Shown here in pieces: positions 2,799-34,875 of a DNA stretch of 64,000 bases. The stretch comes from Polychytrium aggregatum. Its lineage: Eukaryota; Chytridiomycota; Chytridiomycetes; Polychytriales. The position numbers were made by a program, and so were the translations under genes. Position 1 is the stretch's first letter. Each line of letters begins with the position of its first letter. The notes below the pieces were generated by a model. The model did no database searches. It was not told the DNA's origin and saw only the letters and a list, made by a program, of their open reading frames with translations. The stretch is taken from positions 26,003-90,002 of the forward strand of contig NW_026516360.1 of the NCBI RefSeq assembly GCF_025602895.1, in the 5' to 3' direction.

Positions 2799-5700
2799 TC
2801 AGTGGGTGAACTTGAAGAACGACTGGAGTATGGCCAGTGGGTTTGAAGAAATATCGGATTGGTTGTTTGTTGGTTCAAGCGACCGTGTCAGCTGGACATC
2901 GGGGCCGTCGGGACTGGTGGGCTGCAAGAGCGGAGGCGTCAGTTGGGAACAGGATGCGACAATTGGAGGAGCGTAACTCACCTGGATGATGACAGGTGAC
3001 TGATGAAACGATGTGGTCCACAAGATTATGGTACCGGACAAGGTGACAGCACGCTCAGTCCAGCTGCCGAAGAGAGCGTGAGGAACTTGGAGGATATGGT
3101 TTCGATGGCGGATCCACCTTGGAGCACCTTCGACTTTGAGCCACACTCGTGGGTCCGAGATTGTTGGCGCGGCAGAGAACGAGCGTGCGGAGTGGTTGGT
3201 GCGAACAAACCCGTCGTCGCGATGTGTCCACACAATGTCGTTCTTGGTGTCGTCGCGGGAGAGTATCGAGCTGCCATCGCGCGAGAATGACACTGAGCGG
3301 ACCGGGCTGGAATGTCCGGTGAGTGTTTGCTTCAAGCGGCCCGAGGTGGCATCCCACACCCTGACGGTGTTGTCACTGGAGCCTGAGGCGATCCACTTGC
3401 CATTGGAGGACACCACCACAGCATTGATCCACTTTCCGTGCCCGTCAGTATCGTGCTGAACCTGTTCGGCTGTGATATCCCACACCTTGATGGTCTTGTC
3501 GAATGAAGTGGATGCGATCCACTTGCTATCTGGCGAGAACGCCAAGTGATTTACAGGTCCGATGTGTCCCTCGAGAACATACCTTACCTCCCTTGTGGCA
3601 ACATCCCACATCATGACGGAGTTGTCCCGAGAGCCCGAGACGATCCATTTACTGTCTGGCGAAACAGCGACGCCGAAGACAGAGGCTTTGTGTCCTTCGA
3701 GGGTGTGCTTCACCTGGCCTGTTGTGGAATCCCACATCTTGACGGTCCTGTCGCCCGAGCCCGAGACAATCCACTTGCCATCGGGCGTGATCGCCACACC
3801 GTTCACCCAGCTTGTGTGTCCTTTGAGCGTGCGCTTCAGCTGGCCAGTGGCAACGTCCCACACCTTGATCGTCTTGTCTGACGATCCCGAGACAATCCAC
3901 TTGTCATCGGGTGAGATTGCCAATGAAGTCAGATGATTGCTGGAGGCTTGGAGAGTGCGCTTCAGCTGGCCGCTGACAACATCCCAGAGTATAACCGTTC
4001 TGTCTGCAGCACACGAGGCGAGCCACTGGCCGTCGGATGAAAAGGAGACAGCAGTCATGTCATCGGTATGTCCCAGAAGGGTGTGCTTCAGCCGGCCCGT
4101 TGCGGCATCCCATAGCTTGGTAGTCCTGTCGTTTGAACCAGAGGCAATCAGTCTGCCATCGGGCGAGATCGCCACAGCGTTCACTGAGTGGATGTGTCCC
4201 GTGAGAGTGTGTTTCACCTGGCCCGTCATGGCATCCCACACCTTGATGGTGTTGTCACTCGAGCCTGAGACGATCCATTTCCCATCGGAGGAGATTGCAA
4301 CCGTGTGGATCGAATATTCATGACCTGTGAGTGTCATCTCGCACGGATCCCAGGTGGGTGCTGGGCCAGCCGTGACCAGGAACGGGATCTTGTCCTCGAG
4401 TTGGGTGGCATATGTCTTGTAGATCGCCGTCTCCTTCGGTGTGAATGCAAACCCCGAATTGTACACCTGTGGTGCACTCTTGATGATCGGATCGGCAAAC
4501 TCGCGGATGAATCGATACGTGTCCTTGACCAGTTCCTTCGTGGTGTCGTTGACGATGGTGCTGGGTGCCTTGGTGATCACTCCTCGGAGCACAGCCAGTT
4601 GCTCGATGATCGGCTCGACCACATGTGTGAGCGACCCACACTCGAGCCAGAAGAACACATGCGTCTTGACGAGCCGAGTGAGCACCGCTGCCACATCAAC
4701 CATCTCGGTCAACTGCCACACCGGACTCGACTCGGCCTCTCCGTCCACACACCACACAAAGTGTGTGATCCAGTGGGCGACGCTGTATCGCAGCGACGGT
4801 GTGATCTTGGCTGCGACCCTGTCCTCGAGGTCAGCGATCTTGTCGTGAAAGTCGTAGATCTCGCAGATGTTGATCACTGGCTCGTGCGAGAGGATCACGC
4901 CGAGACATCCCTTGGCAAACACCGTGTGGAACGAGGTCGACACATGCCACGGATAGCCAGTTGATGCGTCGCCGAGGAGATAGTCCGCCACCGACTTGTG
5001 GTTGAACTTGACCTCGGTGTTGGTGGACTGGCTGCCTCGGGGACCCAGTCCATTGGCGCCAGGATCGAGGACCAGACTGAGGCTCTTGAGACACTCGCGA
5101 ACGACGCCGATCTCGAGTCCAAACACATCGGCGATGATCTGCGGGGTCAGGATCGACTGGGCCGTGGCGATTGCCGACACCACCGTGACCAGCTCGGCCG
5201 GGTGGCTCGACTGCGAGTGGATCTTGGCGAATGTCTTGTGGTACAGCTGACCGACATCGGCGGCGCTGTCGTTGATGTCCTTGATCGTGGCGAGTGTCAC
5301 TGGGCCGTCCATGGCTGCTGCATCGACGGTGTTGAGGATCAGGTTGATCCACACGAATGTCTTGGACTGGTCCAGCAGGATGGCGACTGCCTCGGTGCGG
5401 TCCGAGTCAGTGAGAGTGTCATACACTCGCAGTCGGTGGCGGATGAACACCTCGAGGTCACGGATGTTCTCCTCGCTCGAGGGTTCGATTGTCTTGGTCG
5501 GGACTCCATCGAATGCTGCCTTGATGTCGTCCTCGGGTCGGGATGTCAGCAGCAGCTTGAGCCACGGACGGGTCCTGTTCAGTTCGACGAAGCGCCAGGC
5601 AAGCAGACTGAGCAGCTGGTCGCGCGGAGAGCACTCGTCGAGTGCATCCACCAGGACCATCACCGATCCCTTGGGTCTGTATTCGCCGATGGCTTCGAGT

Positions 5701-7624
5701 GGATCGGCAATCACGGCCTTGAACAGATCGGGGATGCTCATCTTGTCGAGACTGTCCTTGGAGTGGCCGGCGTCGAGCAACTTGCGGCCAATCGGCGAGT
5801 GCCACTTGCACAGACCGTATGCGATGGTGTTCAGCACCACTCGTGGATCGCTCTTGCGGGTGTCGTTGTACTTGAGGAACAGCGCCGACACCAGTTGATT
5901 GCTGGCTGTGAGGATGTTGGCGATCTGGGCAGCAGCGACGGACTTGCCGACACCGGCAACGGCATTGACCCACAGGACAGTGTCGGAGGTATCCTGGTTG
6001 ACCCAGTCAGTTGTTTGGTCGAACAGCCACTGGCGAGTGCCCTCGACATACAGATCCTCGAGTGCTTGTCTGTCGGAAGTGGAATCGATGGGATCGAGGA
6101 GGAGTCGCAAGGCATGGTCCTGGTCGGCGGTGAGAACGACACTGTCGCCTTGGTGATACGTTGCTCCTTGGTCCTCAGCCGTCTTGATCTTGACAATCAT
6201 GCTACGAATGCTCGGGACAAGCCTGAAACGGAAGGGGGGGGAGCAAATAAATAGGTGAGACTATATCGATGGTTGCAGTTTTGTCGATGAGCAACGTCCT
6301 GTCGGAAGGAAATTGTTGGATGGCAGCAAACTGCCCTCACCCCTTGAGTGCCTTGGTATCAGCAGCATCGAGAGCCTGGAGCTTCATCAACTCCTTGAAT
6401 GTCTGCTGGACGGTCATTGGTTGATTATCGAAGAGTGGACTGTGCTTATGAATCGGTGAGTACCGGGGAAAGTCGCTCGTGGATGGAAAGTATTTGATGA
6501 ACGCCTTTCTGCCGTCGCTCGTCAACACAGTCGACCACATGAACACAGGTTGGACGATGACGGGGTGGTCGGAGGCGGCGGTGTCCTTCATCCGCTTGAG
6601 GGCATGCTGGATCTGCGAGTGAGTGAGTGAGTGAGTGAGTGAGTGAGTGAGTGAGTGAATGAGTGTGTGAGTGAGTGAGTGAGTGTGTGAGTGAGTGAGT
6701 GAGTGAGTGATACGGTCACTGACCAGCCCCGATTCTGCCATGCCTCCAAGACCAACATCACCTCGTTACCCCGAGCAGCTGATTGTCGGGTCTGTTGTGG
6801 GCCTCGAACGTGCGCTTCAGTCCCTCCTCCGAGAGAATCACCACAATCACACTCGACCGATACAGCCCGTTGATGAAACCTTGTTCCCAGTCCATCCCGT
6901 TGCAGAGACACTGGCTGTCGAGATACGGATGGAGCGCCTGGTGGCCGTGCGGCGTCGCTGCGAGTGTCCCGTGCAGTGACGATGCATTGACGGCGTCGCT
7001 GTCGACCCGGTAGCTGTGGACACTCGGTCGTCAGTCGATGGCGGTGCTCCGATGGCGTGGACCAAGTTTGCTCCGATGTCAAGTGGGCCCGATGTCAAGT
7101 GCGGCGACATTGCCCACCTGATGAACACATCGTGGTCGCCGTAATCCAGCTGGCACCTCCACTCGCCGGCCGGAGCGACGGGAGTATAGTCCTGTGAGCT
7201 CATCGTCTGGACTGGTGGCTTGATGGCGGCTTTGGGAGCAGGAATGACAGGCTGGGCAGCGGCGACGGGTTTGGCGGATCCATGGTCGGCCTGTGCCTTC
7301 AGGAGTCTCTTGATCCCGCCAACCTTCATCCCCAGGTCCTTCATATCGCTCTCCTTGAGGGCAAGGAGCTGAGCAAACCACAATCAGCACACGGCGCAGT
7401 CATGGACTCGCCATATCCGCAGCGTTGCCATATCCGCAGCGTCGCCATATCCGCAGCGTCGCCATATCCGCAGCGTCGCCATATCCGCAGCGTCGCCATA
7501 TCCGCAACAACAGCATATCCGCAGCGTCACCCACCAGGTCGACGGTGTTGCATTCGTTGTCGAGAAAGACGCTCTTGTATCCGGCCAGATCGGCCTTCCC
7601 GAGGAACTCGTCAAAGGCATCCAT
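2799..7624 (-). CDS. SAM-TIR-NACHT-WD40 NLR-like protein, copy A
   Basis: Five exons read right to left: 7535-7624, 7118-7368, 6770-7013, 6341-6612, 2799-6222. All donors and acceptors are GT-AG and phases add up to 1,426 aa. A SAM domain (residues 1-60) spans the first junction (NTVDL joined to LLALKESDMKDLG). The TIR domain (about 105-225) contains DVFISYRVDSDAV created by splicing and DWEQGF, whose Glu157 sits where NAD-cleaving TIRs have their catalytic Glu (family knowledge). The NACHT domain has Walker A GVGKS (Lys379) and Walker B LVDALDE (478-482). Nine WD40 repeats of about 42 residues start near residue 914, followed by a 130-residue tail. This is a STAND receptor layout: WD40 as sensor, NACHT as oligomerising switch, TIR as effector. 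The SAM start (ATG 7624) was chosen because it begins the domain; an in-frame ATG at 7786 is possible. Function in immunity or nonself recognition is inferred. Confidence 0.85.
6617..6710. repeat. GAGT tetranucleotide tract in intron 3
   Basis: Run of GAGT/GTGT units lying in the intron (6613-6769) that interrupts the TIR-coding part of copy A. It abuts the acceptor, so it supplies most of the intron's 3' end. The copy B tract is 36 bp longer. Confidence 0.9.
7411..7529. repeat. 17-bp tandem repeat in intron 1
   Basis: Seven copies, some degenerate, of CCATATCCGCAGCGTCG inside the intron (7369-7534) that splits the SAM domain of copy A. Copy B has six copies and its intron is 17 bp shorter. 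Confidence 0.9.
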
Positions 7625-8634: not shown

Positions 8635-11600
8635 TTACGAGATTTCCAAGGCGGATTTTGAAGGTTGACTCATATTCCACAGAATTGCAATCAAAAGAAT
8701 AACAGATGGGATCATCCAGAAGCGAAACTCAAAATCGTGCTTGGTCTCGATAAACTTGTTTATACGTCCAGTAATCGAATTTGCATATTGATTACGAATA
8801 TCAAGCCATTCTTGGCTTGCAGAATGTCCCTGACTTGCAGACTTGGTGATCCATTCAACAGCCAGTGCATCGTCCTGGGCGACACCACTACCGTAGGAGT
8901 AGCATCTTCCGAGGTTGAACTGACCATTGCAATTGCCCTGATGGGCGGCCTTGTTGTACCACTCGACAGCCTTGGTGTAGTCCTGGGCAACACCCTTGCC
9001 GTGCTGGTAGCAGAAGCCGAGCTTGAACTGAGAATCTGCATTCCCCTGGTTGGCGGCCTTGTTGTACCACTCGGCTGCCTTGGTGTAGTCCTGGGCGACA
9101 CCGTTGCCTTTGTAGTAGCAGACGCCGAGGCCGAACTGGGCGTTTGCATTCCCCTGACCGGCGGCCTTAGTATACCATTCGACAGCCTTGGCATTGTCTT
9201 GGTCAACACCTTGGCCATTCTCATAGCAGACGCCGAGATTGAACTGGGCACCTGCGTATCCTTGATTGGCGGCTTTGGTGAACCACTCGAATGCCTTGGA
9301 AAAGTCCTGGGCAACACCATTGCCTTTGTAGTAGCAGACGCCGAGGTTGTTCTGCGCATCTACATTCCCCTGATTGGCCGACTTGGTGTACCACTCCACA
9401 GCCCTGTCATAGTCTCGGGTGACTCCTTGGCCGTTGGAGCAGCCGACGCCAACTGCGTTTTGACCACAGGAGTTGCCTTTCTCGGCCGATTTGGTGAACC
9501 ACTCTAGTGCCTTGGTATCGTCCCGGTCGACACCATATCCCTCGGCATAACATTTCGCGAGAAGGAACTGGCTCATTGCATGTCCTTGATCGGCGAGCTC
9601 TTGAAACAGACACGCGGCGGCTTGGCGGTCATCGACTGTTCCAAAGCCACCGACCATGAATCGTGCAACCAAATGCTTGCAAAGCCAATCGTGCTGCGAT
9701 CCAAATTGACAGAGTTCAAATAGTCGAACTGCCGCTGGTTTCGATGACGCGATCAGGGTGGTGAGTCGAACTGAGTACTCTCCGAGTTCAAAATCGGGTG
9801 TGCGACTCTCGATAAGCCATTGGTTCGCCTTTATCTCATCACGGCGAGTTCCGCGGCCGAGGTAGCAACACCAGCCCATCATGAACGTGGCAATGGGTTT
9901 CATGATGGCGTCAGTCGACTTGTCGTGGACCAGTTGCCAGTAGGCGAATGCCTCGGTGTCACTCTTTGTGATGCCGATGCCGGCGAAATGCAGCCAGGCG
10001 AGCTCGAAAGCGGCTTCGGCGTCGCCCTTATCGGCGGCGATCTGATACAACTCGGCGGCAGCTGTCCAGGCTGGATCGTTAACTGGCTTCTCTTCGGAGA
10101 TCTTGCGTGCAGCCGTGGTATGAGCTTTGGTATCACCTCGCTGGATGCCCATGATCACTGCCCGTGGGAGGACAAACTCGGTGCCGAGTCTCTGGGCCAA
10201 GGCCGGGGGCACCAGTGAGGCGTTGGCAGAGTACCCAGAGGAGCGCGAGCCTGAGCGGTCCGTGCTCAAACCCCGCATCTGCCGGGAGAAGTCGGAGAGA
10301 GTGCGGGGGCTGCCGATTGGGGGTTGAGGCGTTGTGACATCCTTGAATGCAGCGAGAATCGACACGATGTCCCCAAAGGTGGGACGCATGGCGGGGTCTT
10401 GGTGCCAGCAGGCTTCGATGAGCGACCAGATGTGATCAGGGATGTCATCCAGCCGATTGGGTTGCTTCTGCTGGATGATCCGTGACAAAATTTGAGCGGC
10501 TTCCAATTCCCGACCATTTGAGGCTACCCAGACGGGCTTAGCATTATTCAGGACTTCGTACAGGGTGATGGCGAATGCATAGACATCAGTCTTCATCGTG
10601 GTGCCAGTTGGATTCTCTTCGTCGAGCATCTCGGGAGCCATGTAACCCTCGCTGCCTCCAGTGGAGCCGCCATTGCGATTGGGGTTCATCGAGGCCGAGG
10701 TGTGCTTGGTTCTGGACAAGCCAAAGTCAGTGACGATGGCCTGGAAGGATTTGTCCAGGAGGACGTTCGCTGCCTTGAGGTCGCCGTGGATGATTCTTCT
10801 GGCGTGGAGGTAGGACATGCCGGAAGCGACCTCGTACATGAGGCGGAGGCGATCGTCGAGCGAGCGTGGGTTATTGGCGACATAGTCACGGAGTGTGCCG
10901 TTTGGCATGAACGGCGAGACCATGAAAGGACGCTCGGTGGTATCGCATGCACCGTGGAGCGGAAGGACGTTGGAGTGGCTCAGCTTGTACCAGACTTCGA
11001 TTTCACGGCGAAACTGAGCAATCTCAGTCTCGTGGTAGCTGGTCAGGAGTTGCTTGACGGCAACATCCGAGCCATAGTAGGTTGCGGTGAACACCTCGCC
11101 AAAGCCGCCGCGGGCGATCGGTTCAAGGGAGCGGTTCGTGATGGAGCCGGCGGGGATGCGCCATAGCTCGTGTTTCATGGAGCGAGAGACCGAGGACTGG
11201 TTCTGCAGCATGTGGAGGAGCGGAGCGACAGCCTTTTCGACAACTCGTTGGGTGACGTCGCCTTCCTGAAGGAGGTTCTGGATGGCGTCGGTGGCTTGGC
11301 GGATTTTCCACTCCTGCTGGTTCAGACGAATGTCCACTTGGTCCAAGACGGCGGTATTGTTCTGCTGGAGGAGGGTGGTGATTTGGGCGATGAGGGCCTG
11401 GTTCTGGGCGTCGTCGTGCTGGACAGCCTGGCGGAGGTCAGCTTCGTTGAGCATGTCGTTGCTGTTGATGTTGAGGGCCAGCTTCACACCCTGCCAGAGG
11501 ACACTGAGCTCTCGACAGAACTGCTCGATTCGGCGGCGGATCTTGTTGGCCCTGAAGACCCGCTCGACCCTGTGGAAGGCCTGGACCTCGTTGGTGTAGT

Positions 11601-11865
11601 ATTCCTGGATGGTATTGAAGAAGGCAGTAAGCCTGTCCGTTTGCGAGGAGAATCCAGGCGCAACGGTCCGAGACTGCGAGAGAGCGATCAAAATGTCGCG
11701 GGAACGACGGGCCAGGACGCCCCACGACTTTTGGCTCTCGTCCGCCTGCTGGACAGCGGCGAGGAACGCCAAGACAACTTGGACGAGGCCTTGGAGGGAG
11801 CGATCGGAATGGTGGGCGAGTGCAGTGATTTCACTGGCAATGATAGTGATTTCGAGGATTTGCAT
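8635..11865 (-). CDS. MLKL-like protein kinase with Sel1 repeats and C-terminal membrane helix
   Basis: Single open frame of 1,076 aa from ATG 11865. The frame stays open to ATG 12045, but 11865 begins the recognisable domain. Residues 1-230 are helical and resemble the four-helix-bundle/brace region of MLKL and related fungal proteins (family resemblance by eye). Residues 240-510 are a tyrosine-kinase-like domain: glycine loop ARGGFGEVF, VAVK Lys271, catalytic loop HGDLKAANVL (Asp362, non-RD), DFG 380-382 and APE near 410-412. All catalytic residues are present. A linker is followed from about residue 600 by many Sel1 repeats (for example GNGVAQDYTKAAEWYNKAA). Near the C-terminus is a hydrophobic helix, MIPSVILLIAILWNM. 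It probably acts at a membrane; a death-executing role is inference. Confidence 0.85.
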   Translation of the reverse strand: MQILEITIIASEITALAHHSDRSLQGLVQVVLAFLAAVQQADESQKSWGVLARRSRDILIALSQSRTVAPGFSSQTDRLTAFFNTIQEYYTNEVQAFHRVERVFRANKIRRRIEQFCRELSVLWQGVKLALNINSNDMLNEADLRQAVQHDDAQNQALIAQITTLLQQNNTAVLDQVDIRLNQQEWKIRQATDAIQNLLQEGDVTQRVVEKAVAPLLHMLQNQSSVSRSMKHELWRIPAGSITNRSLEPIARGGFGEVFTATYYGSDVAVKQLLTSYHETEIAQFRREIEVWYKLSHSNVLPLHGACDTTERPFMVSPFMPNGTLRDYVANNPRSLDDRLRLMYEVASGMSYLHARRIIHGDLKAANVLLDKSFQAIVTDFGLSRTKHTSASMNPNRNGGSTGGSEGYMAPEMLDEENPTGTTMKTDVYAFAITLYEVLNNAKPVWVASNGRELEAAQILSRIIQQKQPNRLDDIPDHIWSLIEACWHQDPAMRPTFGDIVSILAAFKDVTTPQPPIGSPRTLSDFSRQMRGLSTDRSGSRSSGYSANASLVPPALAQRLGTEFVLPRAVIMGIQRGDTKAHTTAARKISEEKPVNDPAWTAAAELYQIAADKGDAEAAFELAWLHFAGIGITKSDTEAFAYWQLVHDKSTDAIMKPIATFMMGWCCYLGRGTRRDEIKANQWLIESRTPDFELGEYSVRLTTLIASSKPAAVRLFELCQFGSQHDWLCKHLVARFMVGGFGTVDDRQAAACLFQELADQGHAMSQFLLAKCYAEGYGVDRDDTKALEWFTKSAEKGNSCGQNAVGVGCSNGQGVTRDYDRAVEWYTKSANQGNVDAQNNLGVCYYKGNGVAQDFSKAFEWFTKAANQGYAGAQFNLGVCYENGQGVDQDNAKAVEWYTKAAGQGNANAQFGLGVCYYKGNGVAQDYTKAAEWYNKAANQGNADSQFKLGFCYQHGKGVAQDYTKAVEWYNKAAHQGNCNGQFNLGRCYSYGSGVAQDDALAVEWITKSASQGHSASQEWLDIRNQYANSITGRINKFIETKHDFEFRFWMIPSVILLIAILWNMSQPSKSALEIS

Positions 11866-12342
11866 GATTGTGGAGGGATGACGATCAAGCAGGAACGTCT
11901 CCCAGGAACAAGCCTTCCATTCCGCAGCACCGCCCCTTTTATTCTGGCTGTTTGGAGCTCCATAGAGGTGGCGAAGCATGACGCATGATCCGACAGAGTG
12001 ACACGAAACATGGGAGCACGAGAGCGTGTTGCATGTGCTGCGCAATGGTCACGCAGCCACATGCGCAGTGTCAAGCCACACCGCGTGGATGGCAGCCCAA
12101 CGAACACAAGGTTCACACAAATGATTGGGGCAGCCGAACAAGCAGTCACCATCTTCCAGAATGGCATTCCACATCATGACGGCGCACAACATGATCATCC
12201 TGTGTAGGGTGACACGGATGTTGCCGAGGTGATCTCTTCGAATGGGCACAACTTGTCGGGCGCAAGCCATCCCATTCGGCTCTGAGCTGTGGGATTGGGA
12301 ATCGTCCCATTTCGTTCGTACCAACTGCACCAACACGGAGAG

Positions 12343-13480: not shown

Positions 13481-13807
13481 GGTGCCCAAGGAGCGGAGAT
13501 TATGAGCGATCTGCGAACACACTCTCTTTCCAATGGTCCCTGCCTCTCATTGACTCCATTGCACACCCTTTGCCATGCTTGCACCCGCTCTCACTCCCGC
13601 GCCTCACTCCCGAGTCACATCTGCGCATTCCATCCCACCAATGAACGACACAACCCCGCTCAACTCTCCAATGCGTGCCTGGTTGAGATGTGGCCAGTAT
13701 TGTTGTTCCTCGAGTCGATTGTACCTCGCACTCTCACACAAATCCCATTCCATATTTGTTTTTCATGACCGAGTCTGGTCGACTCTGTGCTGTGAATAGG
13801 AAGACTC

Positions 13808-13900
13808 GATTCCATGTCTGATTCCATGTCTGATTCCATGTCTGATTCCATGTCTGATTCCATGTCTGATTCCATGTCTGATTCCATGTCTGATTCCATG
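13808..13900. repeat. 12-bp minisatellite
   Basis: About seven and a half copies of GATTCCATGTCT. The unit is a multiple of three and encodes (MSDS)n on the plus strand, in frame with the Sel1 gene that starts at 14102. Confidence 0.9.
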
Positions 13901-14101
13901 TTCAATGCATGTGGCGATACCTGTGGCAATGTCCTGAGCAACAACGACTCCAGCCAGCAAACCATCGGATCGAGCCAGGCTTGTGTGTATGTTTGGTGGT
14001 GGTGCTTGGCCTGCCAGGGTCTGGCTTGCTTCGCCACAACCTGCCTCTCTGTCTCCTGTCCATCTCCATCACCCACTCGCCTCCCTCCTGTCTCCGTCAA
14101 C

Positions 14102-15682
14102 ATGGCAAGCATGAACGAGCCTGCTCCAAACACAGCAGCATCTCCCGCCCACCAAGCTCAAGATGAATCCAAACCAACCTCGTCGATGCCCGATATCGCT
14201 CAGCTCTCACTCGAACACAACCCAGATATCTTCACCATCATCTGCTGTAACGACAGCTTCCAGCTTGCCCTCGACCACAGCACCATCAAGGCCCTGCTCC
14301 GAGTGTGCAAACGAGCCCAGTCTCTCCTGAGCTCCAAGGTGCCTCGCTTCCTCACCTGGTGCCAGAAGGCTGGATTCTGTCGTCCAGATGGACAGATGCG
14401 GATCGGCCTCACACCCAGTGACCAGATTGCACTCTCCCTGCGCTGTGATGAACAAGAGACAGCCGATCGATCCTGGCTCGAAGATCAAGCTGAACAAGGC
14501 ACTGCTGCTGCATCATATCTCTTGGCTCGGGTGTTGCAATCTGAGATCGGTGAGCAGCGATATCCGACTTGGTTTGAGCTGGATCCCACCCCGCCGCGAA
14601 TCTTCCACCATTTGGAGAAGGCAACGCAAGCTGATCATTCCGTGGCTCAGTTCTATCTGGCTGGACGTTATCGCAATGAACTCGGTGTCAACCAAGATCG
14701 CCCCAAGGCTGTCGAACTGTATCGAGAGCTTGCAGAACGTGGAATACCTCCGGCCCAAGTTGTCCTTGGCAGTTGCTACGAAAGTGGCGAAGGTGTCGAT
14801 CAAGACTTTGACGCAGCCATTGAGTGGTACACCAAGGCTACAAATCAAGGCAGCGAAGATGGTCGGCTCCACATCGAGTTCCTCCGTGGATGGTGCTCAT
14901 TTCTGGGTCACGGTGTCGAACAGAGCGACAGAGCTGCCCTTGCTCACTGGCAGGAGGTCAGCACCAAGTCGAATGACCCGGTTCTCAAGCCCATCGCCAC
15001 CCACATGGTCGGCTGGATGCACTATCTCGGCCGGGGTACCCAGCAGGACAAGCAGAAGGGCGTCGAAATCATCCGAGAGAACAGATCGGATGAGTTCATG
15101 TTTGGAGAAGAAGCGTGTCTGGCAACGCATTGGAGCAACATCAAGTCTGACTCACCCGCAGCCTGCAAGTTCTTCGAGTTGTGCCAGCCGGGATCAGATC
15201 GAGACTGGCTGTGCAGACATCTCACGGCCGTGTGTGTGTTCCATGGATTCGGAACCATCGAGGACAAGAAGAAGGCAGCCGGCATATTCGAGCAGCTCGC
15301 CAACGAAGGCCACAGTGACAGCCAGTTTTGGATCGGAAGGTGCTACATCAATGGCTTTGGAGTATCGAGTGACAACAAGAAGGCATTCGAGTGGCTCAGC
15401 AAATCGGCCGACCAAGGCAACTCATATGGACAGTGGAGGATTGGTTATTGCTACATGAACGGATACGGAGTCGCCCAGGACCACACCAAGGCAGTCGAGT
15501 GGTACCGCAAGTCGGCCGAGCAGGGCAATCGATACGGACAATGGTGGCTCGGCAACCGCTACAAGGATGGCGAAGGTGTCCCCAAGAACATCGACACTGC
15601 CGTCTTCTGGCTCCGCAAGTCCGTCGACCAGGGTTTCCGAGATGCCATCTACGACCTCAAGCAACTCGGCAAGTGGCCCTGA
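14102..15682 (+). CDS. Sel1-repeat protein
   Basis: Intronless frame of 526 aa from ATG 14102 (MASMNEPAPN). The frame is open upstream to 13814 through the 12-bp minisatellite, but 14102 is preferred because the upstream part is low-complexity. Residues about 30-100 form a conserved N-terminal module shared with the broken gene at 12379. From about residue 130, Sel1 repeats follow, for example GVDQDFDAAIEWYTKA and GVAQDHTKAVEWYRKSAEQG. No signal peptide or membrane helix. Sel1 proteins usually act as adaptors. The middle section (KPIATHMVGWMHYLGRGT) is also recognisable in the kinase-Sel1 protein at 8635-11865, so the two genes share ancestry. Confidence 0.85.
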   Translation: MASMNEPAPNTAASPAHQAQDESKPTSSMPDIAQLSLEHNPDIFTIICCNDSFQLALDHSTIKALLRVCKRAQSLLSSKVPRFLTWCQKAGFCRPDGQMRIGLTPSDQIALSLRCDEQETADRSWLEDQAEQGTAAASYLLARVLQSEIGEQRYPTWFELDPTPPRIFHHLEKATQADHSVAQFYLAGRYRNELGVNQDRPKAVELYRELAERGIPPAQVVLGSCYESGEGVDQDFDAAIEWYTKATNQGSEDGRLHIEFLRGWCSFLGHGVEQSDRAALAHWQEVSTKSNDPVLKPIATHMVGWMHYLGRGTQQDKQKGVEIIRENRSDEFMFGEEACLATHWSNIKSDSPAACKFFELCQPGSDRDWLCRHLTAVCVFHGFGTIEDKKKAAGIFEQLANEGHSDSQFWIGRCYINGFGVSSDNKKAFEWLSKSADQGNSYGQWRIGYCYMNGYGVAQDHTKAVEWYRKSAEQGNRYGQWWLGNRYKDGEGVPKNIDTAVFWLRKSVDQGFRDAIYDLKQLGKWP

Positions 15683-24262: not shown

Positions 24263-27200
24263 TCAGTGGGTGAACTTGAAGAACGACTGGAGTATGGCCA
24301 GTGGGTTTGAAGAAATATCGGATTGGTTGTTTGTTGGTTCAAGCGACCGTGTCAGCTGGGCATCGGGGCCGTCGGGACTGGTGGGCTGCAAGAGCGGAGG
24401 CGTCAGTTGGGAACAGGATGCGACAATTGGAGGAGCGTAACTCACCTGGATGATGACAGGTCGGCGTGGAATAGCTGTGGTCCAAATTAGCAAACCTCCT
24501 GTTGGAGTATCAATGTGCTTTGCCCAGTCACCGAAGAGTGTGTGAGGAAGCTTGAGTATATGGATATGGTGACGAATCCACTGAGGTCGCTTGTCCATCT
24601 GCGCCCAGTTAAGAGATGATGGCTCGGAAAGAGGAAACCCGGGAGGATTCGGAGATTTGCCGAGGCGGAAAGACCATTTGCCTCGACGGATCCACACAAT
24701 GTCGTTCTTGGTGTCGTCGCGGGAGAGTATCGAGTTGCCATCGCGCGAGAATGACACTGAGCGGACCGGGCTGGAATGTCCGGTGAGTGTTTGCTTCAAG
24801 CGGCCCGAGGTGGCATCCCACACCCTGACGGTGTTGTCACTTGATCGATAGAAAGACCCGGCTCCTGAGACAATCCATTTGCTATCTGGCGATATCGCCA
24901 CAGATCGCACCGGGCCTGTATGTCCAAGGAGGATGTGCTTCACCTGGCCAGTCAGGCTCTCCCACACCTTGATGGTCGTGTCATTCGATCCAGACACAAT
25001 CCACTCGCCGTTAGAGGAGCAAGCCACGGCGGTGACAGAGTTTGTGTGTCCACTTAGGGTGTGCATCTCTCGGCCAGTTGCGGCGTTCCACACTTTGATG
25101 GTGTGGTCACTTGATCCCGAGATCATCAGCTTGCCATCGGATGAGACTGTCGTTGAGTTCACCAGGTCGGAGTGACCCTCAAGTGTACGCTTCAATTGGC
25201 AGGCAGTGGCATCCCACACTTTGATGGTCTTGTCATCAGAGCCGGATATGATCCAGTGACCATCGGTTGAAAAGACGACAGAGGTGACTGGACCCGTGTG
25301 GCCTTCGAGATTGAGTTTCAGTTGGCCTCGGGCGACGTCCCACACCTTGATCAGCCTATCGCCCGAGCCGGATACCACCGAGTGTCCATCAGGCGAGATT
25401 GCCACACAGTTCACCTCCAAGTTGTGGCCTTCCAAGGTGAACTTCACCTGACCTGAGAGGAGGTCCCAGATCCGGATGGTTGAATCACATGAGCCAGACA
25501 CAATCCACTTGCCATCGGGCGAGATCGCCACAGAGAACACACTATTTGTGTGTCCCTCGAAGGTATCCTTGAGGTTTCCTGTGATGGCATCCCACACCTT
25601 GATGGTATTGTCGCGCGAGCCGGAGATGATCCACTTGCCATCGGACGAGATGGCCACGGAACGCACATCGCTACGGTGACTTTTGAAGGTGTGCTTCAAC
25701 TGGCCGCTGGTAACGTCCCACACCATGATGGTGTTATTACGATAGCCCGAGACAATCCACTTGCCATCGGATGAGAAAGTCACAGAAGTCACCGAGATAC
25801 TGGGACCTTTGAGATTGTGCAGTATTCGGTGGGTAGCAATATTTCCGACAATTAATGTCCCGTCTTCGGAGCCAAAGACAATCAATTGGCTGTCTGAGGC
25901 AATCGCTAATGCGTTCACACCACTTCTGGGCCACCGAAGACCGTATTTCGGCTGCCCCGTCATGGAGTCCCAGACTCTGAGGGTACGATCATTCGACCCA
26001 GAAAGAATCCATTTTCCATCAGGTGAGATCGTTACGGAGGTGACATATTGTGTGTGACCTGTGAGTGTCATCTCGCACGGATCCCAGGTGGGTGCTGGGC
26101 CAGCCGTGACCAGGAACGGGATCTTGTCCTCGAGTTGGGTGGCATATGTCTTGTAGATCGCCGTCTCCTTCGGTGTGAATGCAAACCCCGAATTGTACAC
26201 CTGTGGTGCACTCTTGATGATCGGATCGGCAAACTCGCGGATGAATCGATACGTCTCCTTGACCAGTTCCTTCGTGGTGTCGTTGACGATGGTGCTGGGT
26301 GCCTTGGTGATCACTCCTCGGAGCACAGCCAGTTGCCCGATGATCGGCTCGACCACATGTGTGAGCGACCCACACTCGAGCCAGAAGAACACATGCGTCT
26401 TGACGAACCGAGTGAGCACCGCTGCCACATCAACCATCTCGGTCAACTGCCACACCGGACTCGACTCGGCCACTCCTTCCACACACCACACAAAGTGTGT
26501 GATCCAGTGGGCGACGCTGTATCGCAGCGACGGTGTGATCTTGGCTGCGACCCTGTCCTCGAGGTCAGCGATCTTGTCGTGAAAGTCGTAGATATCGCAG
26601 ATATTGATCACTGGCTCGTGCGAGAGGATCACTCCGAGACATCCCTTGGCAAACACCGTGTGGAACGAGTCCGACACATGCCACCGATGGCCAGTCGATG
26701 CGTCGCCGAGGAGATAGTCCGCCACCGACTTGTGGTTGAACTTGACCTCGGTGTTGGTGGACTGGCTGCCTCGGGGACCCAGTCCATTGGCGCCAGGATC
26801 GAGGACCAGACTGAGGCTCTTGAGACACTCGCGAACGACGCCGATCTCGAGTCCAAACACATCGGCGATGATCTGCGGGGTCAGGATCGACTGGGCCGTG
26901 GCGATTGCCGACACCACCGTGACCAGCTCGGCCGGGTGGCTCGACTGCGAGTGGATCTTGGCGAATGTCTTGTGGTACAGCTGACCGACATCGGCGGCGC
27001 TGTCGTTGATGTCCTTGATCGTGGCGAGTGTCACTGGGCCGTCCATGGCTGCTGCATCGACGGTGTTGAGGATCAGGTTGATCCACACGAATGTCTTGGA
27101 CTGGTCCAGCAGGATGGCGACTGCCTCGGTGCGGTCCGAGTCAGTGAGAGTGTCATACACTCGCAGTCGGTGGCGGATGAACACCTCGAGGTCACGGATG

Positions 27201-29378
27201 TTCTCCTCGCTCGAGGGTTCGATTGTCTTGGTCGGGACTCCATCGAATGCTGCCTTGATGTCGTCCTCGGGTCGGGATGTCAGCAGCAGCTTGAGCCACG
27301 GACGGGTCCTGTTCAGTTCGACGAAGCGCCAGGCAAGCAGACTGAGCAGCTGGTCGCGCGGAGAGCACTCGTCGAGTGCATCCACCAGGATCATCACCGA
27401 TCCCTTGGGTCTGTATTCGCCGATGGCTTCGAGTGGATCGGCAATCACGGCCTTGAACAGATCGGGGATGCTCATCTTGTCGAGACTGTCCTTGGAGTGG
27501 CCGGCGTCGAGCAACTTGCGGCCAATCGGCGAGTGCCACTTGCACAGACCGTATGCGATGGTGTTCAGCACCACTCGTGGATCGCTCTTGCGGGTGTCGT
27601 TGTACTTGAGGAACAGCGCCGACACCAGTTGATTGCTGGCTGTGAGGATGTTGGCGATCTGGGCAGCAGCGACGGACTTGCCGACACCGGCAACGGCATT
27701 GACCCACAGGACAGTGTCGGAGGTATCCTGGTTGACCCAGTCAGTTGTTTGGTCGAACAGCCACTGGCGGGTGCCCTCGACATACAGATCCTCGAGTGCT
27801 TGTCTGTCGGAAGTGGAATCGATGGGATCGAGGAGGAGTCGCAAGGCATGGTCCTGGTCGGCGGTGAGAACGACACTGTCGCCTTGGTGATACGTTGCTC
27901 CTTGGTCCTCAGCCGTCTTGATCTTGACAATCATGCTACGAATGCTCGGGACAAGCCTGAAACGGAAGGGGGGGGGAGCAAATAAATAGGTGAGACTATA
28001 TCGATGGTTGCAGTTTTGTCGATGAGCAACGTCCTGTCGGAAGGAAATTGTTGGATGGCAGCAAACTGCCCTCACCCCTTGAGTGCCTTGGTATCAGCAG
28101 CATCGAGAGCCTGGAGCTTCATCAACTCCTTGAATGTCTGCTGGACGGTCATTGGTTGATTATCGAAGAGTGGACTGTGCTTATGAATCGGTGAGTACCG
28201 GGGAAAGTCGCTCGTGGATGGAAAGTATTTGATGAACGCCTTTCTGCCGTCGCTCGTCAACACAGTCGACCACATGAACACAGGTTGGACGATGACGGGG
28301 TGGTCGGAGGCGGCGGTGTCCTTCATCCGCTTGAGGGCATGCTGGATCTGCGAGTGAGTGAGTGAGTGAGTGAGTGAGTGAGTGAGTGAGTGAGTGAGTG
28401 AGTGAGTGAGTGAGTGAGTGAGTGAGTGAGTGAGTGAGTGAGTGAGTGAATGAGTGTGTGAGTGAGTGAGTGAGTGAGTGATACGGTCACTGACCAGCCC
28501 CGATTCTGCCATGCCTCCAAGACCAACATCACCTCGTTACCTCGAGCAGCTGATTGTCGGGTCTGTTGTGGGCCTCGAACGTGCGCTTCAGTCCCTCCTC
28601 CGAGAGAATCACCACAATCACACTCGACCGATACAGCCCGTTGATGAAACCTTGTTCCCAGTCCATCCCGTTGCAGAGACACTGGCTGTCGAGATACGGA
28701 TGGAGCGCCTGGTGGCCGTGCGGCGTCGCTGCGAGTGTCCCGTGCAGTGACGATGCATTGACGGCGTCGCTGTCGACCCGGTAGCTGTGGACACTCGGTC
28801 GTCAGTCGATGGCGGTGCTCCGATGGCGTGGACCAAGTTTGCTCCGATGTCAAGTGGGCCCGATGTCAAGTGCGGCGACATTGCCCACCTGATGAACACA
28901 TCGTGGTCGCCGTAATCCAGCTGGCACCTCCACTCGCCGGCCGGAGCGACGGGAGTATAGTCCTGTGAGCTCATCGTCTGGACTGGTGGCTTGATGGCGG
29001 CTTTGGGAGCAGGAATGACAGGCTGGGCAGCGGCGACGGGTTTGGCGGATCCATGGTCGGCCTGTGCCTTCAGGAGTCTCTTGATCCCGCCAACCTTCAT
29101 CCCCAGGTCCTTCATATCGCTCTCCTTGAGGGCAAGGAGCTGAGCAAACCACAATCAGCACACGGCGCAGTCATGGACTCGCCATATCCGCAGCGTTGCC
29201 ATATCCGCAGCGTCGCCATATCCGCAGCGTCGCCATATCCGCAGCGTCGCCATATCCGCAACAACAGCATATCCGCAGCGTCACCCACCAGGTCGACGGT
29301 GTTGCATTCGTTGTCGAGAAAGACGCTCTTGTATCCGGCCAGATCGGCCTTCCCGAGGAACTCGTCAAAGGCATCCAT
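24263..29378 (-). CDS. SAM-TIR-NACHT-WD40 NLR-like protein, copy B
   Basis: Five exons at the positions equivalent to copy A: 29289-29378, 28889-29139, 28541-28784, 28076-28347, 24263-27956, giving 1,516 aa in phase. SAM, TIR (DVFISYRV and DWEQGF intact) and NACHT (GVGKS, LVDALDE) are nearly identical to copy A, with about a dozen changes over 620 residues in the last exon before the WD40 part. It has eleven WD40 repeats against nine, plus a 6-residue insert (GSFYRS) in repeat 10. The tail differs in its middle (RPQWIRHHIHILKLPHTLFG) but ends identically. A ninth G in a homopolymer at about 27967 (eight in copy A) opens a frame upstream of the internal Met. That extension is intronic, so the spliced model is preferred. 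Confidence 0.85.
28352..28480. repeat. GAGT tract in intron 3 of copy B
   Basis: Long, almost pure GAGT run inside intron 28348-28540, 36 bp (nine units) longer than in copy A. Confidence 0.9.
29182..29283. repeat. 17-bp tandem repeat in intron 1 of copy B
   Basis: Six units of CCATATCCGCAGCGTCG inside intron 29140-29288, one fewer than in copy A. Confidence 0.9.
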
Positions 29379-33009: not shown

Positions 33010-33599
33010 ACCAACCCCCATCTCGAATCAGCGACGATATCCAGCCCAGCGGGCTGCTGCCCTCATACGCACATCCGCACTTTGCTGCTGCAGTTGCGGT
33101 TGCCTGTTTCCTCTTCCTCCGGCCCAGCGTCTATCAGAGACTGACTTATGAAGCGAGCCAACCGCTTGTGCACACTCGCAATTTGAGAAGGGAGCTGTCT
33201 AGGAGCATAAATATAGTCACAACAATAACAGCAAACGGAGTCACAACGCCCGAAGCAAAGAATGCCATGGCAGGGAAGTGTAGGCGGCAGGTGGTTCGTT
33301 TGGACGCAAGGGGAAACAAAAAGCAATCCAAGAGCAGAGCAGCTGAACAGAGGGCCTTTCGAGTGACTCATGAAACAGCCAGGGAGCGAGCATCGGGAAC
33401 ATGTCACAGCGGACTTGCCACGGCTTCTGCTGGCTGCCGCACTTTCCGGCCACTGCCAGGATGAATCAACTACGCCCAGCTCTGGATACTTTGCTCCTTC
33501 CACGACATCCAAGTCGATTCCGGTGCCTCCAATCTCCCCTCGCCACAAAAAAATTTTCAAGCACACAGAGGGGGATCGTGGGTGATGGCCTTCCGTGCA

Positions 33600-33670
33600 A
33601 CAAGATGGTGCAAGGAGAGGCAGTCATCCGATCCGAGAGATATTTTCCGCTGAGTACCGTCATCTCGCAG
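33600..33670 (-). promoter_or_regulatory. Possible SECIS region in the selenoprotein H 3' UTR
   Basis: Within 140 nt after the stop at 33739 there are two ATGA motifs on the minus strand (33660-33663 and 33624-33627), with an AAAA run between them. ATGA and an apical AA are hallmarks of SECIS elements. By eye I could not fold a convincing stem, so this only marks where to search. Confidence 0.2.
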
Positions 33671-33738
33671 CATGCGTTTCGCTTGGGAATTGGACGATGA
33701 AATGAAATGAAAAAAAAAAGGTGTGGGCCCGTCAGTTG

Positions 33739-34875
33739 CTAGGCAGTCAGATGAGGCTTCAAGATGGAGAGAAAATCTTCATCCGACGGGAACTTGAGTT
33801 TGCGAGGCGGGCCCAGCTTGACTCCTTTGATATGTATGATTCATGAAAGAAGTACATCAGTGGGTTTCGCGCCAGATGGGTCGGGGGGGGGCTACAGTCG
33901 CTATGCCGGCTGCCAACATGCCGGTGTTCTCCCTCGACTCACTGCCAACGAAGGGGCTTACCCGACCAGAGAAGTGTTTCTGTAGTGTGATGCGGGCCCG
34001 AGCAAGACGCAAGAGAATGAGATCGATTAAAGAGGCGATCCCGAACACACCAACGGCAAGCAGGGGCCTGAAGCAGCATGCCAGCCATAGACCCTAGCGG
34101 AATAGCGCATCCCATACCGTTTCCATCTCGGATCATCGTGACTTCAAAGCTTTTGGATCGAGGCTTTCTGACGTTGACCTCGACGACTGCCCCAGGACAA
34201 ACACCCAAGATCGCCTGTGTTGGAAAGCCCACAGCCGCAGCGGATCAATCGGTCGATTCAATTGGCTGGTCGTTGCGGTGGCTGCTCAGGACCACCGATG
34301 AAGTGCAGACGCCAGTCATGATTTGCCACATCAACGCTGCATGGCATATCCTCGAGCGAGTCAAAAGAGTCGAGCGAGTCGAGGCTCACCTTGGTGATTC
34401 GGTCTGCAGCAGTCTTGTACACGGATCAACTTTTGCAGCGCTCGATCTCGAACCGCAGCGGGCTGGGCGGCGGCGAGATCGGTACAGCCGCAGACTTGCT
34501 GTCGACAAGCGGGGATGGGTCCGTCTGGGCCGGCTCTGCGCACTCTTCCTTGGTGCAGACCTCAGTCTCGATCTCAGCCTCAGTCTCAGTCTCGGCCTTG
34601 GACTTGGACTCGGCCTTGGACTTGGACTTGGACTGGACAGACGACCTGCTCACAGGAGTGCTCGAACTGGGAGCTGTAGAACCGACTGCTTGACGCACAG
34701 ATCGTTTGGCGCTGCTCTTGGCTTCGAGCTTGATGGCTACGAGCTTGGTGGCCGTCGAAGTGGGCTCGCTGGCTTTCCGAACGGCCCGCGCCGATCTGCG
34801 AAGCGAGCGTTCGGGGCCACCGCCGTCACGACCGGGAGGGCCGTCGTCGGCAGGGACGGTCTTCTTCTTGGGCAT
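33739..34875 (-). CDS. SELENOH: Selenoprotein H homolog with in-frame UGA
   Basis: Exons right to left: 34390-34875, 34118-34214, 33962-33979 (18 nt), 33739-33824. If TGA at 34426-34428 is read through, all junctions are in phase and the protein is 228 aa. The first half is basic and low in complexity (starts MPKKKTVPADD; SLRRSARAVRKA), consistent with nuclear, DNA-binding SelH. The domain then reads LRFEIERCKS, the UGA, SVYKTAADRITK, then VVEVNVRKPRSKSFEV, ETLLWSGVKLGPPRKLKFP and a short end. This is the Rdx/SelH order, with the redox motif C-x-x-U exactly at the UGA. Conservation continues across three introns after the UGA, so it is not the true end. Start 34875 fits the family's short basic N-terminus. 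Confidence 0.8.
34426..34428 (-). other. Putative selenocysteine codon (TGA)
   Basis: In-frame TGA within RCKS-TGA-SVYK, at the position of Sec in the CxxU motif of selenoprotein H. Confidence 0.75.

Follow-up and report, generated by a model that had tools for sequence, protein, structure and literature searches.

Is the in-frame UGA of a selenoprotein H (SelH) gene in a chytrid fungus read as selenocysteine (Sec)? The question is raised by a locus in the window (the whole stretch of DNA analysed here, 64,000 nucleotides from Polychytrium aggregatum). A preliminary description, made from the letters alone, had taken the genome to be fungal, which agrees with the NCBI taxonomy of the host: Fungi, Chytridiomycota, Chytridiomycetes, Polychytriales. 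Splicing of genomic frames gives a SelH gene of four exons on the minus strand, 34875-33739, in exactly the position first proposed:

34390 to 34875, minus strand: SelH exon 1, with an ATG at 34875, a frame open apart from one TGA, and a GT donor after it
34426 to 34428, minus strand: in-frame TGA, probably a Sec codon, falling in the Sec/Cys column when SelH proteins are aligned and present in the second haplotype
34118 to 34214, minus strand: SelH exon 2 (AILGVCPGAVVEVNVRKPRSKSFEVTMIRDGN), AG acceptor, GT donor, phase kept
33962 to 33979, minus strand: SelH exon 3, 18 bases, TLLWS region, AG acceptor, GT donor, phase kept
33739 to 33824, minus strand: SelH exon 4 (VKLGPPRKLKFP...), AG acceptor, stop TAG (33741-33739) at its end

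Joined across three GT...AG introns with phase kept, the exons have a length divisible by 3 and give a frame of 228 residues that ends in TAG and contains a single internal TGA. Exon 1 encodes a basic, Ser/Lys/Glu-rich N-terminus and the CKS-U-SVY motif, and the protein reads ...ERCKS-U-SVYKTAADR...VNVRKPRSKSFEV...LLWSGVKLGPPRKLKFP, with U the TGA at 34428-34426, in a CxxU motif; downstream of ERCKS-U-SVYKTAADR is VNVRKPRSKSFEVTMIRDGNETLLWSGVKLGPPRKLKFP. The TGA had been placed within CKS-U-SVY from the start, and on the minus strand that placement is correct to the base. The second haplotype (C397; the other copy is on C66) shares these exons and the TGA; over the gene the two differ by one 6-base in-frame indel (two codons, in the exon 1 Ser/Lys repeat) and three differences in intron 3, and copies so nearly identical carry little information on selection.

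Assignment to the SelH family, also proposed in the preliminary description, is upheld by profile score and alignment. With Cys typed for the UGA residue, the protein passes the NCBIfam SelT/SelW/SelH model TIGR02174 (35.9 bits, cut-off 34.2) and falls slightly below that of Pfam Rdx (21.4 bits, cut-off 22.6). Alignment of CKS-U-SVY with homologs P0003 and P0004 puts the UGA on the family Sec column, CxxU, and alignment with P0002-P0004 and P0007 identifies the C-terminal signature KPRxxSFEV ... W(S/T)G(V/I)K.GPPRKLKF together with the basic N-terminus. The three further in-phase exons had been said to match SelH to its end, as splicing and alignment with SelH relatives confirm.

Six homologs were found by homology search with SelH, the nearest being an annotated Paraphysoderma sedebokerense protein (P0002; 61% identity over the SelH region, 59% over 82% of the query in the search alignment); one, P0007 from Smittium culicis, bears the database name Selenoprotein H. 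In the proteins of three ENA records (P0003-P0005) the motif recurs as CKS-x-SVYK, the residue at the UGA being printed as Trp. In the annotated proteins P0002, P0006 and P0007 the CxxU stretch is absent, as expected where a gene caller avoids an in-frame TGA. The same search did not return the SelH of P. aggregatum itself; since the searched database holds a SepSecS of this species, its SelH gene is probably unannotated or mis-modelled there. P0002 lacks exactly the CxxU stretch, and this gap hints at an in-frame UGA in P. sedebokerense, and hence at possible Sec use in what we take to be its phylum, Blastocladiomycota.

Does the organism have the means to decode such a codon? The preliminary description supposed so, and genes for tRNA-Sec, PSTK, SepSecS, eEFSec, SBP2 and SPS2 were all found in the P. 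aggregatum assembly (64.7 Mb, 418 contigs), so that this is not a genome without Sec machinery. The tRNA-Sec gene scores 68.3 bits (cut-off 47) at two places, with anticodon TCA (tca according to ARAGORN); the model's five other matches, among the matches listed, are tRNA-Ser genes. SepSecS exceeds its cut-off in the genome profile search, and the joined pieces of SPS2 reach 233.9 bits against a cut-off of 125. For eEFSec, the fourth domain is above cut-off, and the GTPase and following part have eEFSec chains as best PDB match. PSTK, on C24 only, was pieced from exons whose best family is selen_PSTK (64.5 bits, E 1e-17), at a score below full-length family cut-offs (290.5 for selen_PSTK). The other genes lie on two contigs each: SelH on C66/C397, SPS2 on C77/C408, SepSecS on C1/C406, eEFSec on C223/C374, SBP2 on C190/C169 and tRNA-Sec on C68/C363. 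Judging by these paired copies, the assembly looks like two haplotypes.

The best PDB match of the SBP2 RNA-binding domain is the SBP2 of 7zjw (E 4.3e-20); other L7Ae-domain matches were rejected as SBP2, reading by eye as eL8, eS12, Nhp2, Snu13 and eL30. Beyond the RNA-binding domain, the SBP2 open frame (L064:3-1277, minus strand) continues and encodes ankyrin repeats (Pfam Ank_2, E 4.7e-34), an extension not known from animal or other SBP2 proteins:

G000:C190 near 128962, second copy on C169 near 26001: SBP2 with ankyrin extension

The pieced SepSecS, which lost some residues at joins, has 95% identity along its length with a P. aggregatum database protein. A tree of 22 rows, chosen among 120 matches listed, places it beside Hyaloraphidium curvatum (98/93) and separate from the remaining rows, 16 that are mostly animals and 4 on the amoebozoan side. 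This grouping would agree with inheritance within fungi, as far as a tree with only two fungal rows can indicate.

SelH is not the only gene concerned: a UGA occupies the Sec position in three genes of P. aggregatum, namely SelH, SPS2 and a member of the Rdx family (SelT/W/H). SPS2 reads MKG-U-GCKVP. The Rdx gene (L073:882-1842, plus strand, on C79; second haplotype L074, on C166) has an exon at L073:1368-1413, which supplies the rest of a split Cys codon; this exon reads CTS-U-GMFKAASDAF, with the TGA at L073:1375-1377. With Cys for the UGA, its spliced frame scores 52.1 bits with TIGR02174 and 43.2 with Pfam Rdx, each above cut-off; the protein, which is SelT/W-like, has a hydrophobic stretch at its N-terminus, and the 3' UTR holds an element resembling those of SelH and SPS2. 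Two other families were considered as selenoproteins and rejected. The best match to TXNRD (on C13) ends HPTAAEELVTMR*, by eye a glutathione reductase with no Sec; the eight GPx matches, at four places, include none with an internal stop, and there is Cys at both places read through.

Sec insertion would also call for a SECIS element, which the preliminary description suggested looking for in 33010-33738. This stretch does hold a candidate:

33623 to 33669, minus strand: candidate SECIS in the SelH 3' UTR, with GAG-ATGA (ATGA 33663-33660), AAAA 33646-33643 and GA 33628-33627

It starts 75 nt past the stop codon, is the sole match of a first geometry scan of the SelH 3' UTR, and has the ATGA and GA core with AA at fixed spacing. 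Against it, there is no Rfam match and the stem is no more stable than those of shuffles. The first scan alone is not significant (15 matches in 14,000 random bases); energy and geometry together do not tell the SelH UTR from shuffles, with 41 of 100 shuffled SelH stretches giving some match; and helix II is not stable, 195 of 200 shuffles folding at least as well (189 of 200 for the Rdx element). The Rfam SECIS model (RF00031/SECIS_1) has no match in the SelH or SPS2 loci and, with 133 of 645 candidates scored, none at E 10 across the genome, and thus misses the SPS2 element too. That element is a SECIS of canonical geometry, an ATGA/GA core flanking helix II with AA in the apical loop. A strict search (ATGA, at least 9 contiguous pairs, AA at 9-15, GA) of both strands of the window and 17 loci had one match in 131,039 bases, in the SPS2 3' UTR on the correct strand; ten shuffled sets gave no match in seven and one match in three. 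The fold of the SPS2 element is matched by just 4 of 200 shuffles (z -2.59).

The three elements can also be compared with one another. They share a start, which reads GAGATGATGGTGTGCTCACTGGAAAA in Rdx, GAGATGACGGTACTCAGCGGAAAA in SelH and GAGATGATGCTCATTGCTGGAAAC in SPS2; the Rdx and SelH elements are related, with GAGATGAYG...GGAAA in common. A pattern written from all three, GAGATGAN{6,14}GGAAA, matches in 16 of 82 loci, all overlapping SelH, SPS2 or Rdx loci. In the window it matches twice, where 0.19 matches would be expected, and one of the two is SelH. Because the pattern derives from all three elements, models built without one of them served as the test, in leave-one-out runs for SelH and for Rdx whose E-values come from short calibrations and are rough. 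Trained on SPS2 and Rdx alone, one model puts the SelH element at the top of the window with 18.2 bits (E 0.034), ahead of a runner-up at 10.2, and again at the top, its training rows aside, when 157,539 bases are covered (E 0.083; runner-up 11.6). Trained on SelH and SPS2 alone, the other scores the Rdx element at 23.1 bits (E 0.0022), the runner-up in the window and L073 having 13.5.

In pair counting with three rows only, the share of cells that pair is 93%, compared with no more than 67% after sliding, and 121-176 of 500 shuffles are as high, so that the count is uninformative against shuffles; covariation of the three element rows gives no useful signal. When 728-base 3' flanks are aligned, each of the four scorings puts the best SelH-Rdx match on both elements, though it exceeds shuffles only weakly (as good in 36 of 300, then in 30, 16 and 263 of 500), and the best SelH-SPS2 and Rdx-SPS2 matches fall outside the elements. 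Genome-wide, GAGATGANGN{7,13}GGAAA has 48 matches (17 for a reversed-pattern control); the three selenoprotein UTRs, each in both haplotypes, account for six. The remaining 42 comprise 25 distinct strings. Of these, 22 were examined at a single place each, 21 of them fetched and 1 lying in the window, and gave no further selenoprotein: the best scores 15.4 bits (model R1), against 40 to 51 for the three training elements. Matches on C40, C257 and C358 were set aside as, by eye, ankyrin-repeat coding, SMC3-like coding and a repeat-rich stretch, respectively. Since the SelH and Rdx elements fold weakly, covariation is uninformative and the E-values are rough, we call these two elements SECIS candidates; that of SelH, 33669-33623, is most likely its working SECIS.

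Could the TGA be something other than a Sec codon? It is a stop in the standard code, and the stem of the SelH SECIS candidate is weak; the gene might on these grounds be a decaying pseudogene, or the source of a truncated protein. This is very unlikely: four exons, their splice sites and the frame past the TGA are intact in both haplotypes, the TGA falls on the Sec column and has counterparts at the matching place in SPS2 and the Rdx gene, and the Sec-pathway genes are present. A hidden intron removing the TGA would leave an ordinary SelH without Sec, and the annotated Paraphysoderma (P0002) and Smittium culicis (P0007) proteins do lack the CxxU stretch, as though it were spliced out. Such an intron would, however, delete the redox motif that defines the family, and the missing stretch in predicted proteins is what a gene caller avoiding an in-frame TGA would produce; Sec machinery has been reported in the species group of Smittium (PMC12611240). 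We consider splicing of this kind highly improbable.

Reading of UGA as another amino acid in P. aggregatum, for example Trp, as printed at this position in P0003-P0005, is scarcely credible: those letters look like machine translation of TGA, all three TGA codons seen occupy a Sec/Cys column, and the genome has tRNA-Sec with its enzymes. Animals and algae commonly use Sec and fungi seldom do, so that contamination of the assembly by SelH or the Sec machinery of another organism might be suspected. Its probability appears negligible: SelH, SPS2, SepSecS, eEFSec, SBP2 and tRNA-Sec each lie on two contigs, as for two haplotypes, several of them longer than 0.9 Mb, and the C1 SepSecS is filed under P. 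aggregatum and groups with the chytrid Hyaloraphidium. The structure of the SelH gene, its family and the pathway genes are observed; the UGA at 34428-34426 is very probably read as Sec through the Sec pathway.

Decoding would proceed as follows. The tRNA-Sec (anticodon UCA) would be charged with serine, which PSTK would phosphorylate on the tRNA; SepSecS would convert the phosphorylated serine, with selenophosphate supplied by SPS2. The charged tRNA would be delivered to the ribosome by eEFSec, directed by SBP2 on the 3' UTR SECIS (most likely 33669-33623). The predicted product is a small, basic, thioredoxin-fold redox protein with CxxU, a redox role being general for SelH. All six parts of the animal pathway (tRNA-Sec, PSTK, SepSecS, SPS2, eEFSec, SBP2) are thus represented in P. 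aggregatum, with the difference that its SBP2 frame continues into ankyrin repeats.

The elements may be set against the textbook form of the eukaryotic SECIS, which served as standard beside Rfam RF00031. The SPS2 element is like it, with ATGA, a 9-pair helix, AAA and GA, and those of SelH and Rdx keep the core and spacing; they differ from it in having no RF00031 match and, in SelH and Rdx, a weak, bulged stem and the shared GAGATGAYG...GGAAA. Most fungal selenoproteins reportedly lack consensus SECIS elements, a result attributed to the 2019 survey of Sec in fungi. A tentative and rather doubtful possibility is that chytrid selenoprotein mRNAs have their own SECIS variant, recognised partly by sequence (GAGAUGAYG...GGAAA) and with a weak helix II, which an SBP2 with a C-terminal ankyrin extension reads: a modified Sec insertion route rather than the standard animal one.

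Gonapodya prolifera is said to be the species in which Sec use was reported for Chytridiomycota in 2019. According to PMC11378755, Sec machinery is present in nine fungal species, in Chytridiomycota, Zoopagomycota and Mucoromycota; Sec machinery in a chytrid lineage is common to that 2019 report (Mariotti et al., Nat Microbiol 4:759), cited there, and to P. aggregatum, which belongs to another order. Seven of the nine are Harpellales, according to PMC10386755, and PMC12611240 describes SelH and Sec machinery as common to Harpellales and expressed in Zancudomyces. Harpellales such as Smittium and Zancudomyces (Mariotti et al. 2019, as cited in PMC12611240) resemble P. aggregatum in combining SelH and Sec machinery in an early-branching fungus, and the Smittium culicis SelH protein matches that of P. 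aggregatum; they differ in phylum, P. aggregatum being a member of Chytridiomycota (Polychytriales), and the annotated S. culicis protein is without the CxxU stretch. Two 2021 papers state, from annotated proteomes, that fungi encode no Sec (PMC7988114, PMC8559351). No paper joining selenocysteine with Polychytrium, Hyaloraphidium or Paraphysoderma was found in a search whose scope excluded subscription papers and preprints.

P. aggregatum would thus join the few fungi known to use Sec. As such use is already reported for nine fungal species, its SelH adds to a known type; the shared SECIS-like sequence and the extended SBP2 are a modest new lead. The SelH gene also illustrates how annotation can overlook such genes. 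Because the chytrid can be cultured, its three UGA genes and the three related candidate elements open fungal Sec insertion to tests by mutation and SBP2 binding.

Elsewhere in the window, a protein kinase with Sel1 repeats (8638-12048, minus strand), whose N-terminal part gave no homolog in a homology search, neighbours a Sel1-repeat protein (13796-15679, plus strand). Two near-identical large genes, at 2799-6260 and 24263-28093 on the minus strand, each combine an NPHP3_N (NACHT-like) domain with WD40 repeats.
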